NCBI GenBank assembly: GCA_016184125.1
Contig: JACPDG010000039.1
Coordinates: 62,001 to 126,000 of the forward strand
Origin: Candidatus Rokuibacteriota bacterium
Lineage (GTDB): Bacteria > Methylomirabilota > Methylomirabilia > Rokubacteriales > CSP1-6
Length of the DNA: 64,000 bases
Direction: 5' to 3'
This document shows, one piece after another, positions 2,030-51,096 of this stretch. Position numbers and translations under genes: made by a program. Numbering within the stretch: the stretch's first letter is position 1; every line of letters begins with the position of its first letter. Below the pieces are notes generated by a model, which did no database searches, was not told the origin of the DNA, and was given only the letters and a program-made list of their open reading frames with translations.

Positions 2030-3487
2030 TCACCGGCGGCGGGGCATCAGGCGACGCTGGTGGGACGGCAGGATCCCGAGCTCCTCGCGGTACTTCGCGA
2101 CGGTCCGCCGGGCGATCGTGAGGCTCCGCCCCTTCAGGATCTGCGCGATCTCCTGGTCGGAGAGCGGCTTCGACGGATCCTCGTTCGCGAGGAGATCCTG
2201 GATCATCTTCTTCACGGAGACGGACGACACCATCTCGCCGTCGCCCGACTGGATGCCGCTGTGGAAGAAGAACTTCAGCTCGAAGAGGCCCTGCGGCGTC
2301 TCGATGTACTTGTTCGTGGTGACGCGGCTCACCGTCGACTCGTGCATGCTGATGTCCTCGCCGACGTCGCGCAGCGACAGCGGGCGAAGGTACGGCAGGC
2401 CCTTGTCGAGGAAGTCCTTCTGGAACTTCACGATCGACTGCGCCACCTTGCGGAGGGTGCGCTGGCGCTGGTCGACGCTCTTGATGAGCCAGACCGCCGA
2501 GCGGAGCTTCTGCTCGACGTACTGCCGCGCCTCGTCGCCGGAGCTCCTGAGCAGCGAGCGGTAGAGATTGTTCACGCGCAGCCGCGGGATCCCGTCCTCG
2601 TTGAGCACGACCGTGTACTCGCCCCCCGTCTTGACGACCGCGACGTCCGGGACGATGTAGCGCGAGTCGTTGCCGCCGAAGCGCCGCCCCGGCTTCGGCT
2701 CGAGCCCCATGATCTCCTCGACCGACTCCATGATCCGGTCGAGCGGCAGCTTGAGCGCTCGCGCGATGTCCGGGTAGCGCCGGCGCGTGAGGTCGTCGAA
2801 GTGCTGCTCGACGATCTCGACCGACACAGGGTCCGGATTCGGATCGGTCTTGAGCTGGAGCAGCAGGCACTCCTGGATGCTGCGCGCCGCCACGCCGGGC
2901 GGGTCGAAGGCCTGCACGATCGCCAGGATCTTCTCGACCTCGGGCACGCTCACGCCGCAACGCTGGGCGATCTCCTCGAGCTCGGCGCGCAGGTACCCGT
3001 CCTCGTCCAGGTTGCCGATGATCTCCGTGCCGATGCGCCGCGCGACGGGATCCTCGAGCTCCGGGCTCAGGCGGAGCTGCTCGTCGAGGTGGTCGTTGAG
3101 CGAGGACGTCGACCGCACGATGTTCTCGAAGGGCAGGTCGTCCCGGTCCTCCTGCGCGACCAGCGAGCGCTCCTCGTGGTCGTCGAACATCACCGCGGTG
3201 AGGTCGAACGGCAGGTCGTCCGTCGGCCGTTCGTCGCGCGGCGGCGGCTCCGTGGTCGCCGGCAATTCGGGAGCCGTCGCCGTCGCCCGCGGATCGTCGG
3301 CTTGCGGCGCCTCCGGGTTCTCCTGCTCGGGGGTCTCCTCGAGCAGCGGGTTCTCGAGGAGCTCCTTCTGGACGACTTCCTGCAGCTCGAGCGTGGACAG
3401 CTGGAGCAGCTGGATCGCCTGCTGCAGCAGCGGCGTCATGACGACCCGCTGGCTCTGCCTGAGTGATAGTCGCGTTTCCATGGCCAT
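2030..3487 (-). CDS. rpoN: RNA polymerase sigma-54 factor
   Basis: Sigma factor for -24/-12 promoters, which need AAA+ activators. The 485-aa protein has the Gln/Leu-rich activator-interacting region at its N terminus (LRQSQRVVMTPLLQQAIQLL), an acidic linker at about residues 50-100, the core-binding region, and the RpoN box ARRTVAKYRE close to the C terminus. The start is MAMETRLSLRQ; a second ATG two codons later is equally possible. It lies directly downstream of lptB, which is the classical neighbourhood in Gram-negative bacteria. Confidence 0.95.
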   Translation of the reverse strand: MAMETRLSLRQSQRVVMTPLLQQAIQLLQLSTLELQEVVQKELLENPLLEETPEQENPEAPQADDPRATATAPELPATTEPPPRDERPTDDLPFDLTAVMFDDHEERSLVAQEDRDDLPFENIVRSTSSLNDHLDEQLRLSPELEDPVARRIGTEIIGNLDEDGYLRAELEEIAQRCGVSVPEVEKILAIVQAFDPPGVAARSIQECLLLQLKTDPNPDPVSVEIVEQHFDDLTRRRYPDIARALKLPLDRIMESVEEIMGLEPKPGRRFGGNDSRYIVPDVAVVKTGGEYTVVLNEDGIPRLRVNNLYRSLLRSSGDEARQYVEQKLRSAVWLIKSVDQRQRTLRKVAQSIVKFQKDFLDKGLPYLRPLSLRDVGEDISMHESTVSRVTTNKYIETPQGLFELKFFFHSGIQSGDGEMVSSVSVKKMIQDLLANEDPSKPLSDQEIAQILKGRSLTIARRTVAKYREELGILPSHQRRLMPRRR

Positions 3488-4235: not shown

Positions 4236-4415
4236 CATGGGGGGGCTATCGAAGCCCCCCATACCCCCCAGGGTGGCTCGGACACGGCCCGGGGAACCCG
4301 GGCCGCGCCTCGGGCTCGCGCTCGGTCTGCGGGGACAATCGATACCCCCCATGGTGGCTCGGAACCGGCCCGGGGAACCCGGGCCGGTCCTCGGCGACCG
4401 CATCTCGTTCACGAG
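4236..4415 (-). repeat. Composite double-hairpin repeat, two tandem units, copy R2
   Basis: Two head-to-tail units. Each has a TATCGA-type GGGGGG/CCCCCC hairpin followed by CGG(A)-rich spacer and a GGCCCGGGGAACCCGGGCC-type hairpin. On the minus strand the element ends in CCCCCCCATGATC, 8 bases before the lptB start. It separates lptA from lptB. Confidence 0.85.
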
Positions 4416-5719: not shown

Positions 5720-6739
5720 TCAATAGACGATCTTTGCCCGAAGGATGTCGTGCAGGCGAATCAGACCGACGGGCCGCTGCTGGTCGTCGACGATGACCAG
5801 GCTCGTGATCTGGAACGCCTCCATGATTTCGAGCGCTTTTGCGGCAAGCTCCTCCTTCCGGATGAGCTTCGGGTTCCGGGTCGCGATCTGCCCGGCCGCG
5901 ACGCCCGGACGGTCGTGGCCTCCCAGGTGCACGCGCCGCAGGTCGCCGTCCGTGAAGACGCCGATGAGCCGACCGGCAGCGTCGACGACCGTCGTCATGC
6001 CGAAGTTCTTGCGCGTCATCTCCGCGATGACATCCTTCAGCGACGCGCCCTCCGGAACCACGGGGACCGCGTCACCCGTGACCATCAGGTCGGCCACCCG
6101 GAGGAGTGCGCGCCAGCCGAGCGCCCCTCGCGGGTGTAGCGCCGCATAGTCCTCGGGACGTAACCCGCGTCGCTCGAGCAGCGCCATGGCGAGCGCATCG
6201 CCCATCGCCAGTGTCGCGGTGGTCGACGAGGTCGGCGCCAGGTTCATCGGGCACGCCTCCTCCACGACGCTGACGTCGAGCACGACCTCGCACTGCCGCG
6301 ACAGGGTCGAGGCCGGGTTGCCGGTCATCAGGATGATCGGCACGCCGAGCCGCTTGAGCGGCGGCACCACTGCGAGCACCTCGTCCGTCTCGCCCGAGTT
6401 CGACAGGGCGAGCACGACGTCGCCGCGCGCCACCATGCCGATGTCCCCGTGCACGCCCTCCGCCGGGTGCAGGAAGTACGCGGGTGTCCCCGTCGATGCG
6501 AGCGTCGCCGCGATCTTGCGGCCGATGATCCCGGACTTGCCCATGCCGGTCACGATCACGCGGCCCATGCAGCCCCAGAGCACCTCGATCGCCCGATCGA
6601 AGCGCTCGTCGAGCTTCGGGATGAGCGCCAGGATGGCGTCGGCCTCGATCCTCAGCACGCGCGCCGCGAGCGCGGCCGCGCGCCCCTCGGGCGCGGCCGC
6701 GCGCCCCTCGGGCGCGGCCGCGCGCCCCTCGGGGCTCAT
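5720..6739 (-). CDS. kdsD: D-arabinose 5-phosphate isomerase (KdsD/KpsF family)
   Basis: Converts ribulose-5-P to arabinose-5-P, the first step of Kdo synthesis. It has a SIS domain ([30 protein letters not shown]), followed by two CBS domains ([36 protein letters not shown]). The start at 6739 overlaps the kdsA stop (ATGA). The N terminus is odd: directly after Met-Ser come three copies of PEGRAAA, encoded by an exact 21-bp tandem repeat that also occurs in panE. Normal family members lack this stretch. The protein is 339 aa, slightly longer than the usual 320-330. Confidence 0.92.
6671..6733 (-). repeat. 21-bp tandem repeat, 3 units, in frame in kdsD
   Basis: Three units of CGCGGCCGCGCGCCCCTCGGG (plus-strand reading) without mismatch. 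On the minus strand they encode PEGRAAA repeats at the start of KdsD. The same unit, again three times and in the same orientation, is at 50119-50181. Confidence 0.95.
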
Positions 6740-22145: not shown

Positions 22146-24134
22146 TTACGTCACCGTCTGCTTGCGCAGGGCCTTCACCCGGTCGCGCAGCTCCGCGGCG
22201 CGCTCGAAGTCCAGGCGGCGCGCTGCCTCACGCATCTCGGTTTCCAGCTCCGCGATCCTCTTCTCGAGCGCCGCCGGCGACTCGAACGTCTGCGGCGCCG
22301 GCGCCTCGACGTCGACCGTGTAGTAGTCGCGCTCGTAGATCGTCTGCAGCAGCTCGCGGATCGAGGAGCGGATCGACTCGGGCGTGATGCCGTGCTCGGC
22401 GTTGTACGCCGCCTGGATCTCGCGCCGCCGCTCGGTCTCCTGGATCGCGGCGCGCATCGACCCGGTGATGCGGTCGGCGTACATGATCACCTCGCCATGG
22501 ACGTTCCGCGCCGCGCGCCCGGCCGTCTGGATGAGCGACGTCGCCGACCGGAGATACCCTTCCTTGTCCGCGTCCAGGATCGCGACCAGCGAGACCTCGG
22601 GGATGTCGAGCCCCTCGCGGAGCAGGTTGATGCCGATCAGACAGTCGAACTTGCCGAGCCTCAGATCCCGGATGATCGCCACGCGGTCGAGCGTGTCGAC
22701 GTCCGAGTGCAGGTACCGCACACGCAACCCGGTCTGCTGGTAGTACTCCGTCAGGTCCTCGGCCATGCGCTTCGTCAGCGTCGTGACGAGCACCCGCTCG
22801 TCGCGCTCGGCGCGCAGGCGGACCTCGTGCAGCAGGTCGTCCACCTGGTCGGCCGCAGGACGGACGGTGATCTTCGGGTCCATGAGACCCGTCGGGCGGA
22901 TGATCTGCTCGGCCACCGCGTCGCCGGCGAGCTCGAGCTCGTACTCTCCCGGCGTCGCGGAGACGTACACGGTCTGGCCCGTGAGCCGCGTGAACTCGTC
23001 GAACGTCAGCGGACGGTTGTCGAAGGCCGACGGCAGCCGGAACCCGTACTCGACGAGCGCTTCCTTCCGCGAGCGGTCCCCGTAGTACATCCCCCGGATC
23101 TGGGGCACCGCGACGTGGCTCTCGTCGATGATGACGAGCGCGTCCTTCGGCAGGTAATCGATCAGGACCGGCGGCGGCTCCCCGGCCCGGCGGCCGGTCA
23201 GGTGGCGCGAGTAGTTCTCGATGCCGTGGCAGTACCCGAGCTCGCGGAGCATTTCCATGTCGAAGAGCGTCCGCTGCTCGAGCCGCTGGGCCTCCAGCAG
23301 GCGATTGCGCTGGCGGAGGAACGCCAGGCGCTCGCCGAGCTCCTCCGTGATCGTCTCCAGCGCACGCTCGAGCTGTCCGGCCTCGGTCACGTAGTGGCTC
23401 GCGGGATAGACGTGCGCGGCGTCGTAGCGCTCGAGGAGCGCCCCCTTGAGCGGATCGATCTTCCAGATCGCCTCCACCTCGTCGCCGAAGAGCTCGACAC
23501 GCATCGCGTGCGACTCCTCGTTCGCGGGAAAGATCTCGACGACGTCGCCGCGCACCCGGAACGTGCCGCGATGGAAGTCGTAGTCGTTGCGCTCGTACTG
23601 CACCGCGATCAGCCGCCGGATGATCTCGTCGCGGTCGATCCGGTCGCCCACGCGGAGCGACAGGTGCAGCCCGCGGTACGTCTCCGGCGCGCCGATGCCG
23701 TAGATGCAGGAGACGGACGCCACGACGACGACGTCGCGCCGCTCGAGCAGCGAGCGGGTCGCGGAGTGTCGCATCCGGTCGATCTCGTCGTTGATGAGCG
23801 CGTCCTTCTCGATGTACGTGTCCGACTGCGGGATGTACGCCTCGGGCTGGTAGTAGTCGTAGTACGACACGAAGTACTCGACGGCGTTCTCCGGGAAGAA
23901 CGCCTTGAACTCGCTGAAGAGCTGCGCCGCGAGCGTCTTGTTGGGCGACATGACGAGCGCGGGCCGGTTCAGGTTCGCGATGAGGTTCGCGATCGTGTAC
24001 GTCTTGCCCGATCCGGTCACGCCGCGGAGCACGGCGTGGTCGCGCCCGCTCGCGACGGCGCGCGTGAGGTCCGCGATGGCGGTCGGCTGGTCGCCGCGCG
24101 GGGCGTACTCCGAGGTCAGCTCGAACATCGTCAC
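22146..24134 (-). CDS. uvrB: Excinuclease ABC subunit B
   Basis: Damage-verifying helicase of nucleotide excision repair. The 662-aa protein has Walker [11 protein letters not shown], the beta-hairpin region [25 protein letters not shown] that probes damaged DNA, the DEAD-like helicase motifs ([14 protein letters not shown]), and a C-terminal UVR domain ([16 protein letters not shown]) for UvrC. The start could be either Met of MTMFEL. A perfect 36-bp inverted repeat lies about 50-200 bases upstream. Confidence 0.97.
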
Positions 24135-24182
24135 ACGTTGTGGCCTTACGTCGGGTCGCTCGTGAAGCGATCACGCGCGAGG

Positions 24183-24331
24183 CGGCTCGGGGGTGGCGCC
24201 GGGGGGTCCGCGCGCCCGCCGCGCTCCGTCACCCACTCGACCCACACGCAGTGCTTCGCACTGCGAGGGTACGAGGGGGTCCCACTCACGCGCGCCGGGC
24301 GCGCGGACCCCCCGGCGCCACCCCCGAGCCG
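24183..24331. repeat. Long perfect inverted repeat (36-bp arms) between the HNH gene and uvrB
   Basis: Arms at 24183-24218 and 24296-24331 are exact reverse complements (each begins or ends CGGCTCGGGGGTGGCGCC). The 77-base interior holds a second hairpin, CGCAGTGC-TTC-GCACTGCG. It fills about half of the 310-base gap between the HNH gene and uvrB. Its sequence is unrelated to the R1-R20 family; no other copy is in the window. Confidence 0.95.
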
Positions 24332-24444
24332 GTCACGCGTAGCCGCTCCCCGAATAACCTCCATAGGGTACCGCAGCGTGGCGGTGTCGTTCCGCGCCTG
24401 GCCGCAGGGCGATCGGAGCCCGCCCGCTGGAGAACGCTCCCGGA

Positions 24445-24975
24445 TCAGCCGGGGAGCGGGACGGCCACGAGGTACTTCCGCCACGAGTCGAGCAGCGAGT
24501 GCGCGTGCGGGTGCCTCAGCAAGTGCGTGGAGAAGAGGAACTTCGGGTGCACGGGGTCGCGCAGCAGCCGCATCCCCGCCTCGTGCGGGAGGCGGTTCCC
24601 CTTCTTCAGGTTGCAGCGCAGGCAGGCGGCCACGACGTTCGTCCACGTCGTGTCACCGCCGCGCGAGCGCGGGATGACGTGATCGACGGTCAGCCGCTCG
24701 CCACGCCGGCTGCAGTACTGGCACGAGTAGCCGTCGCGCCGGAGGATGTTCTTCTTGTTGAAGGCCACGCGATCGATGAACGGCTTGCGGATGTACACCG
24801 CGAGCCGGATCACCGCCGGCAGCGAGAACACCGTGGACGGCGACCGGATGACGCGCGGCGAGGCTTCGACGGGCACAGCCTTGCCGTTCAGGAGGAGCGT
24901 GACGGCGCGCCGGGCGTTGGTGAAATGCAGGGGCTCGTACGAGTAGTTGAGCACGAGTACTGCGATTTCATCCAT
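24445..24975 (-). CDS. HNH endonuclease family protein
   Basis: 176-aa stand-alone HNH protein of a widespread chromosomal family of unknown role. The nuclease core is CQYCSRRGERLTVDHVIPRSRGGDTTWTNVVAACLRCNLKKGNRL, with a CxxC...CxxC zinc site, the catalytic DH and the Asn. The N-terminal part (VLNYSYEPLHFTNARRAVTLLLNGKA) is the conserved lead domain of this family. No intron, prophage or restriction partner is nearby, so a housekeeping or repair role is as likely as defence. Its promoter is near consensus and ends about 5 bases before the ATG, so the mRNA would be nearly leaderless. Confidence 0.85.
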   Translation of the reverse strand: MDEIAVLVLNYSYEPLHFTNARRAVTLLLNGKAVPVEASPRVIRSPSTVFSLPAVIRLAVYIRKPFIDRVAFNKKNILRRDGYSCQYCSRRGERLTVDHVIPRSRGGDTTWTNVVAACLRCNLKKGNRLPHEAGMRLLRDPVHPKFLFSTHLLRHPHAHSLLDSWRKYLVAVPLPG

Positions 24976-50101: not shown

Positions 50102-51096
50102 CCCTGCCTCCCCTCGGGCGCGGCCGCGCGCCCCTCGGGCGCGGCCGCGCGCCCCTCGGGCGCGGCCGCGCGCCCCTCGGCGACCTGGCCTGCCGCGTGG
50201 GGCTTGAGCGCCGCGTAGACGGCGAACAGCATCGGTGTCGGCACCCCGAGGCGCTCACCGAGGCGCACGGCGTGGCCGTGCAGCGTCTCGAGCTCCAGGC
50301 GCTTGCCCTGGAGCAGGTCGTGGTGGAGGGACGACGTCGTCTCCGGCCCGAGCGCCGCGGCGGTCTTCATGATCGTCTCGACCACGTCGGCGGCCATGCC
50401 TGCCCCCGCACGCGCGCCGAGCGCGGCGAGCTCCTCGAGCATCATCCGGTACATCCGCCACGTCTCGGGCACCGGACGAATCACCCCGGTGCTGGCGCGC
50501 GTGAGCGCGGTCATGCCCGCCTGCGCGCAGATGAACAGGTACTTCTCCCAGAGCACGCGACGGATCTCCGTCGAGACCTCCACCGGGACCCCGGCGTTCG
50601 CGAGCGCGTCGCGCAGGCGCTCGACGCGCGGCGTGAGACGCCCGTCCATCTCGCCGAGCACGATCCGCCCCAGGAACCGGTGCGCGACGACGCCGGGCGA
50701 CTCGATCGTCGCGAAGACGTACGCGGCGCCGCCGAGCGCGTGGCCGGCGCCGAGCGCCGCGTCGATCTTCTCCGGCCCGTCGACGCCGTTCTGCAGCGTC
50801 AGGACCGGCGTGTCGCGACCGACGACCGGCCGGATCGTCTCGAGCGCCCGGGCGGTGTCGAATCCCTTCACGGAGAGGACCACGGCGTCGGCCCGTGGCC
50901 GGCCCTCGAGCGACGTCGCGACCTCCGGCTTCGCGAGCCACTCGCCCTCGATCATCGACCGCACGCGAAGCCCCCGGTACCGGATCGCGTCCGCGTGCGC
51001 ACCGCGCGCGACCATCGTGACCGCCTCGCCCGCGCGCGCGAGCTTGCCCCCGAAGTATCCGCCCACACCACCTGCGCCCATGACGACGATGTGCAT
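50098..51096 (-). CDS. panE: 2-dehydropantoate 2-reductase (ketopantoate reductase family)
   Basis: NADPH-dependent reductase of pantothenate synthesis, or a paralogue acting on another 2-oxo acid. 332 aa with the Rossmann motif GAGGVGGYFGGKLARAGE, NGVDGPEKI, the Lys in LWEKYLF and the C-terminal ELETLHGHAVRLGERLGVPTPM. ATG 51096. The C terminus carries three extra PEGRAAA units from the same 21-bp tandem repeat found in kdsD, and the native end is probably near LKPHAAG. Next to two ABC exporter genes, which is not a pantothenate context. Confidence 0.85.
   Translation of the reverse strand: MHIVVMGAGGVGGYFGGKLARAGEAVTMVARGAHADAIRYRGLRVRSMIEGEWLAKPEVATSLEGRPRADAVVLSVKGFDTARALETIRPVVGRDTPVLTLQNGVDGPEKIDAALGAGHALGGAAYVFATIESPGVVAHRFLGRIVLGEMDGRLTPRVERLRDALANAGVPVEVSTEIRRVLWEKYLFICAQAGMTALTRASTGVIRPVPETWRMYRMMLEELAALGARAGAGMAADVVETIMKTAAALGPETTSSLHHDLLQGKRLELETLHGHAVRLGERLGVPTPMLFAVYAALKPHAAGQVAEGRAAAPEGRAAAPEGRAAAPEGRQG
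50119..50181 (-). repeat. 21-bp tandem repeat, 3 units, in frame at the 3' end of panE
   Basis: CGCGGCCGCGCGCCCCTCGGG three times (last base differs in the third unit). Encodes [21 protein letters not shown]. Identical in unit and copy number to 6671-6733. Confidence 0.95.

Follow-up and report, generated by a model that had tools for sequence, protein, structure and literature searches.

The perfect inverted repeat that lies between uvrB and a small HNH nuclease gene in the window, a stretch of 64,000 nucleotides from a Candidatus Rokuibacteriota genome, very probably belongs to a MITE: a copy of a non-autonomous transposon of ~210 bp that carries IS1380-type ends, was likely moved in trans and appears to have had its arms maintained by template switching. 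The first-pass annotation, which offered a MITE as one possibility, delimited the hairpin alone; comparison with relatives extends the element to ~214 bp (24150–24363), with ends inferred from alignment with better-preserved copies. The element is short, non-coding, multicopy and dispersed, and its family displays terminal repeats, target duplications and empty sites. Its ends are common to IS1380 elements in four related genomes (G019, G086, G002 and G083), whose transposases may be able to act on it in trans.

The arms of the hairpin (24183–24218 on the plus strand and 24296–24331 on the minus strand) are exact reverse complements over 36 bp and are separated by a gap of 77 bp (24219–24295). 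Past one mismatch the pairing extends to 42 nt at 98% (24183–24224 and 24290–24331). The gap holds a conserved structured core, GCTCCGTCACCCACTCGACC...GGTACGAGGGGGTCCCACTCACG (24223–24289, plus strand), in which GTCACCC and CCCACT are invariant in the aligned copies, and an apical stem with a short loop (24247–24265, plus strand), formed by CGCAGTGC (24247–24254) and GCACTGCG (24258–24265). The arm length, spacing and inner hairpin first described are thus confirmed in position and pairing, and they lie far beyond chance. The hairpin is by far the best inverted repeat of the window, the runner-up in length being 40 nt at only 70%, and the folding energy of the region as single-stranded RNA is -158.7 kcal/mol, as compared with -98.0 ± 4.8 kcal/mol for dinucleotide shuffles (z = -12.5, 0 of 200). 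A search against Rfam returned no match in the window at the gathering score and only sub-threshold miRNA-type matches in relatives.

Outside the arms, the left terminal region (24150–24182, plus strand) contains the decayed terminal inverted repeat TCGTGAAGCGATCACGCGCGAGGCGG, which closely resembles the left end of another copy in this genome, one lacking the core (TCGTGAAGGCATCACACGCGAGGCGG, locus L266). The right terminal region (24332–24363, minus strand) contains a second decayed repeat, with GTTATTCGGGGAGCGGC in place of the ATTATTCACGAACGGC of other copies, and its right end, GAATAACCTCCA, aligns with GAATAATGCGCG. These terminal inverted repeats are decayed but alignable, and the boundaries, set by flank alignment to copies with clear CTAG and CCTGCATTATTCACGAACG ends, are approximate because of that decay. 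Bordering the element are what appear to be decayed target-site remnants, TTAC (24146–24149) and TAGG (24364–24367); a recognisable target duplication is not found at the window copy itself.

Both neighbouring genes lie outside the element on the minus strand: uvrB (22146–24134; NCBIfam TIGR00631 and NF003673) downstream and the HNH nuclease gene (24445–24975; PF01844 and PF14279) upstream. The gap between them is 315 bp in the window and 10–116 bp by alignment in 21 relatives, lengths that indicate an empty site elsewhere rather than exact boundaries, uvrB being only ~80% identical in the relatives. The core is absent from the uvrB–HNH site of every relative examined. As read from these alignments, the element entered the window by insertion between the two genes. 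The HNH gene adjoins uvrB in ~20 relatives that lack the element, and it follows that this gene does not travel with it; other copies adjoin unrelated genes. The earlier suggestion of a link to the HNH nuclease therefore falls, and an HNH-linked mobile element is rejected. As for the recent origin proposed on the strength of the perfect arms, absence from all examined relatives speaks for it and the decay of the ends and of the target duplication speaks against it, leaving it doubtful. Direct adjacency of the small HNH gene to uvrB is itself conserved among Rokubacterial relatives; the gene's HNH domain gives a weak match to IscB/Cas9d models, and HNH and uvrB are possibly a repair-linked pair.

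Other copies were readily found. In the same genome, DNA search located a second copy (G000:C69:30490–30611) at 88%, and the core-less relative (G000:C38, ~3290–3420) lies directly after a stop codon, giving two core-bearing copies and one without a core in total. DNA matches to the element are present in 14 of 60 relatives. Of 95 genomes in the class, 27 are positive when the core is searched for as a covariance model; the highest copy number in one of them is at least 41, and presence is patchy even inside genera. An exact-pattern scan of GTDB genomes returned at least 118 stretches, and among the matches listed all named hosts are Candidatus Rokubacterium or Rokuibacteriota. The hairpin is therefore not a single copy at one locus but a member of a multicopy family found across genomes. 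Viral, phage and plasmid collections yielded no match, and an origin from any of these is rejected. Two genomes each contain one inverted pair of elements ~280 bp apart (L067, G030:C47:42218–42601; L063, G079:C147:116523–116902), and at L063 an apparent degenerate third core lies between the paired elements. The same gene junction is occupied in two genera (L296 in G030 and L325 in G002), with an identity of 73–81% in the flanks and ~78% in the core; this shared junction is either a very old copy or repeated insertion at one place.

The window contains further repeats. Nine 21-bp palindromic repeats, GGGGGCCCCGAcATGGCCCCC, lie on the plus strand at 957, 13852, 13957, 26541, 26629, 39455, 46288, 46390 and 62823, as compared with zero expected, and several are paired ~90–105 bp apart; the same-genus genome G001 carries this repeat in its uvrB–HNH gap. 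Two identical 54-bp palindromic blocks, GCGCGGCCGCGCGCCCCTCGGGCGCGG..., occupy 6670–6723 and 50118–50171. The palindrome CGGCCCGGGGAACCCGGGCCG occurs twice, ~60 bp apart, at 4285–4386, and a similar CGGGGAACCCGGGG stretch lies in the uvrB–HNH gap of G001. In that gap of G001 lies GGGGGCCCCGACATGGCCCCC, a repeat different from the element, which is present in the window too. The hairpin had been set apart from a repeat family called R, and this separation looks right if R is the GGGGGCCCCGACATGGCCCCC repeat of the window (nine copies).

The ends of the family point to IS1380. Well-preserved copies are ~210 bp long and end in CTAG-CCTGCATTATTCACGAACG terminal repeats. Among the 66 well-ended copies, ~30 have CTAG/CTAG pairs; eight flank pairs other than CTAG (CTAA or TTAG) show the identical 4-mer in direct orientation, and no pair of this kind agrees in reverse complement. 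The flanking 4-mers are thereby identified as target duplications lying outside the inverted repeat. The family thus has the target-site duplications that were to be looked for, as 4-bp direct repeats of CTAG, CTAA or TTAG. PF13701 (IS1380-type) transposases are present in several relatives, and the transposase loci of G019, G086, G002 and G083 have the same kind of ends with CTAG, 1532–1696 bp apart. By a stricter end test, CTAG is found on both sides of the G019 and G002 copies, and these searches bring out insertion sequences 1692 and 1696 bp in length whose CCTGGATTATTC-type ends are flanked by CTAG. The G019 transposase matches NF033539, the NCBI IS1380 model, with E = 3e-108 and PF13701 with E = 2e-126. 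At a PF13701 locus of the same-genus genome G002 (L071), the reading frame is split in two matches.

Similar to the element, the IS1380-family insertion sequences (NF033539, PF13701) of Rokubacteria have the terminal sequence CCTGGATTATTC..GAACG and a CTAG duplication. The main differences are that the element has no transposase gene and that its hairpin core is absent from the insertion sequence. The common part is limited to the terminal ~18 bp, and the idea that the IS1380 copies found gave rise to the element by internal deletion is rejected on this ground. The PF13701 search detected no IS1380 transposase in the window's own genome or in the high-copy genomes G091, G023, G015 and G030, all incomplete MAGs; this may reflect real loss or MAG incompleteness, repeated insertion sequences often being lost. 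Most likely, IS1380-family transposases related to those in other Rokubacteria moved the element in trans. A eukaryotic relative of IS1380 is piggyBac, for which IS1380 has been used as an outgroup (PMC10813416).

Across the aligned copies the invariant core reads GCTsCGTCACCC-rCTCG ... CGCaGC-loop-GCtGCG ... CGAGGGGGnCCCACT, and each copy is predicted to form one long hairpin around it. The stem is supported by covariation, with a score of 0.416 as compared with 0.136 ± 0.015 for shuffled and at most 0.113 for slid alignments; double changes occur in 29 of the 42 predicted pairs, and five of the eight apical pairs have double compensatory changes. Covariation alone is no proof of a functional RNA. 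In genus g9, many copies have near-perfect arms with little likeness of the arms between copies: non-orthologous copies have a core identity of 94% and an arm identity of 69% (63% for shuffled arms), and within a copy the arms are 84% self-complementary, as compared with 64% when shuffled.

The outer motifs of the hairpin reveal how the arms of the window copy may have become perfect. In most copies these motifs are asymmetric, the left one reading GGGTCCTGTCGCCGG and the right one CCGGCGCCACCC; the outer motif has T on the left and G on the right in 77 of 125 copies, G on both sides in only five, including the window copy, and T on both sides in one. The left arm of the window copy has GGGTGGCGCCGG, the complement of the right arm with its conserved GCGCCACCC motif, where most other copies have GGGTCCTGTCGCCGG. 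The gene conversion that had been suspected between the arms is borne out in this respect, the usual motif of the left arm having been replaced by the complement of the right. At orthologous sites between species the core is mostly kept, and the arms diverge yet remain largely self-complementary. At two such sites (L281/L306 and L289/L303) the flanks are collinear and the interior is inverted, the alternative being that separate insertions hit one place in opposite orientations.

Template switching at inverted repeats is known to homogenise arms and to invert spacers (PMC8604942), and hairpins can be maintained by it (PMC8794818). Homogenised arms and inverted spacers of the kind seen here fit such DNA-level template switching. 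Similar to the element, the quasipalindromes corrected in this way (PMC8604942, PMC8794818) undergo arm homogenisation and spacer inversion; the difference is that in the element these events are inferred over many dispersed bacterial copies of one mobile element. G-U and A-C mismatches are nearly equal in number, both over all copies (337 and 322) and when oriented by the transcript (194:172, p = 0.27). This balance speaks against selection on RNA from one strand, and RNA-level selection on the arms is rejected. Taken together, the equal mismatch types, the replacement of one arm and the inversion in place favour DNA-level template switching over RNA selection. The terminal repeats would decay after insertion, and the arms would correct each other by snap-back synthesis, staying complementary despite drift; the same process would sometimes flip the core in place, and in the window copy mutual correction would have produced the perfect 36-bp arms.

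The positions of the copies relative to genes, which were called with a model trained on the known window genes, follow the target sites. A neighbouring gene's stop codon is overlapped by 42 of the 66 well-ended copies. CTAG is rare inside genes and common at stop codons, and copies accordingly settle at gene 3' ends. Only three copies lie in divergent gaps as compared with 32 in convergent gaps, but CTAG sites are spread over the gaps in the same way (p = 0.24); a preference for convergent gaps beyond that distribution is rejected. Orientation with respect to genes is 41:30 overall (p = 0.24), and the apparent bias in g9 (19:5) is gone after orthologous sites are collapsed (15:10).

An observation that fits a plain MITE less well is that copies with decayed ends are common to several g9 species at orthologous sites, with a core identity of 93–97% at one of them, a livG/livF-like site; this exceeds the decay expected of a MITE unless the core is homogenised or selected. 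We regard it as possible, at rather long odds, that the Rokubacterial hosts took over the core of a selfish MITE for use at gene ends, as a DNA or RNA hairpin that is recognised by its sequence in either orientation, perhaps through binding of a dedicated protein. Individual copies would then have been retained long at orthologous sites, with the core kept and the arms renewed by template switching after mobility was lost. It is somewhat less probable, and on balance unlikely, that the family as a whole is a domesticated hairpin, in which the host keeps the core as a functional 3'-end or intergenic structure, acting in transcript processing, stability or termination or as a DNA hairpin bound by protein, with transposition responsible for no more than its spread. 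The long-kept core at decayed copies, the high core identity and arm self-complementarity in g9 and the scarcity of copies in divergent, promoter-bearing gaps would all agree with domestication. Against it, the copies have neither a strand signature nor an orientation bias, the CTAG sites account for the avoidance of divergent gaps, the covariance-model search finds 68 of the 95 genomes without the element, and conservation of the core could stem from gene conversion between copies. That the core is conserved across families, and at orthologous sites with decayed ends as well, may reflect selection for transposition, gene conversion or domestication. There is no positive evidence for a host role of the copies.

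For this locus a structured leader or terminator of the uvrBC transcript or the HNH gene had also been suggested; such a locus-specific RNA element, an attenuator included, is very improbable. The hairpin is extremely stable and lies ~16 nt upstream of uvrB on a presumed HNH–uvrB transcript; the uvrB–HNH gap of ~20 relatives contains no such structure, however, and these empty sites argue strongly against a conserved uvrB-specific role. Other copies have unrelated genes as neighbours, livG/livF-like and his genes among them. Neither a T-tract terminator nor a sigma-70-like promoter was found at the window hairpin, nor was an Rfam family, and an intrinsic terminator is rejected in the absence of a T-tract. 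For the MITE, the effect on the host would be weak or none beyond that of a very stable hairpin placed so close to uvrB, whose expression the hairpin might influence. Least credible of all is an identity as a REP/REPIN-type element that a Y1 (RAYT) transposase has moved: the known REP/REPIN elements (PMC3116915) are, like this one, extragenic, palindromic, multicopy and dispersed at gene 3' ends, but the element has terminal repeats and 4-bp target duplications, and a search for Y1_Tnp found none in the high-copy genomes G079, G030, G023, G015 and G090, on which ground a RAYT origin is rejected.

The closest parallels are the bacterial MITEs, including Correia elements (CREE), ERIC and TIMEs (PMC4133298), which are likewise short, non-coding and multicopy, have inverted-repeat ends resembling those of an insertion sequence family, generate a target duplication, can fold into one hairpin and often adjoin genes. 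Short stretches of conserved core are a further feature of TIMEs (PMC4133298). In contrast to these elements, the present one has IS1380-type ends and a CTAG-like duplication rather than Tn3 or TA-type features, and its near-invariant, covarying core is kept across families of one class as the arms and ends turn over.

The family is apparently an undescribed MITE family in an uncultivated phylum; a literature search found no paper joining Rokubacteria and MITEs, or IS1380, MITE and CTAG. It ties transposition of the IS1380 type to CTAG as a target, and this accounts for copies landing at stop codons. Its many copies, some at shared sites, provide a natural experiment on the upkeep of arm complementarity. 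If the core were under host selection, it would represent a new class of domesticated hairpin.
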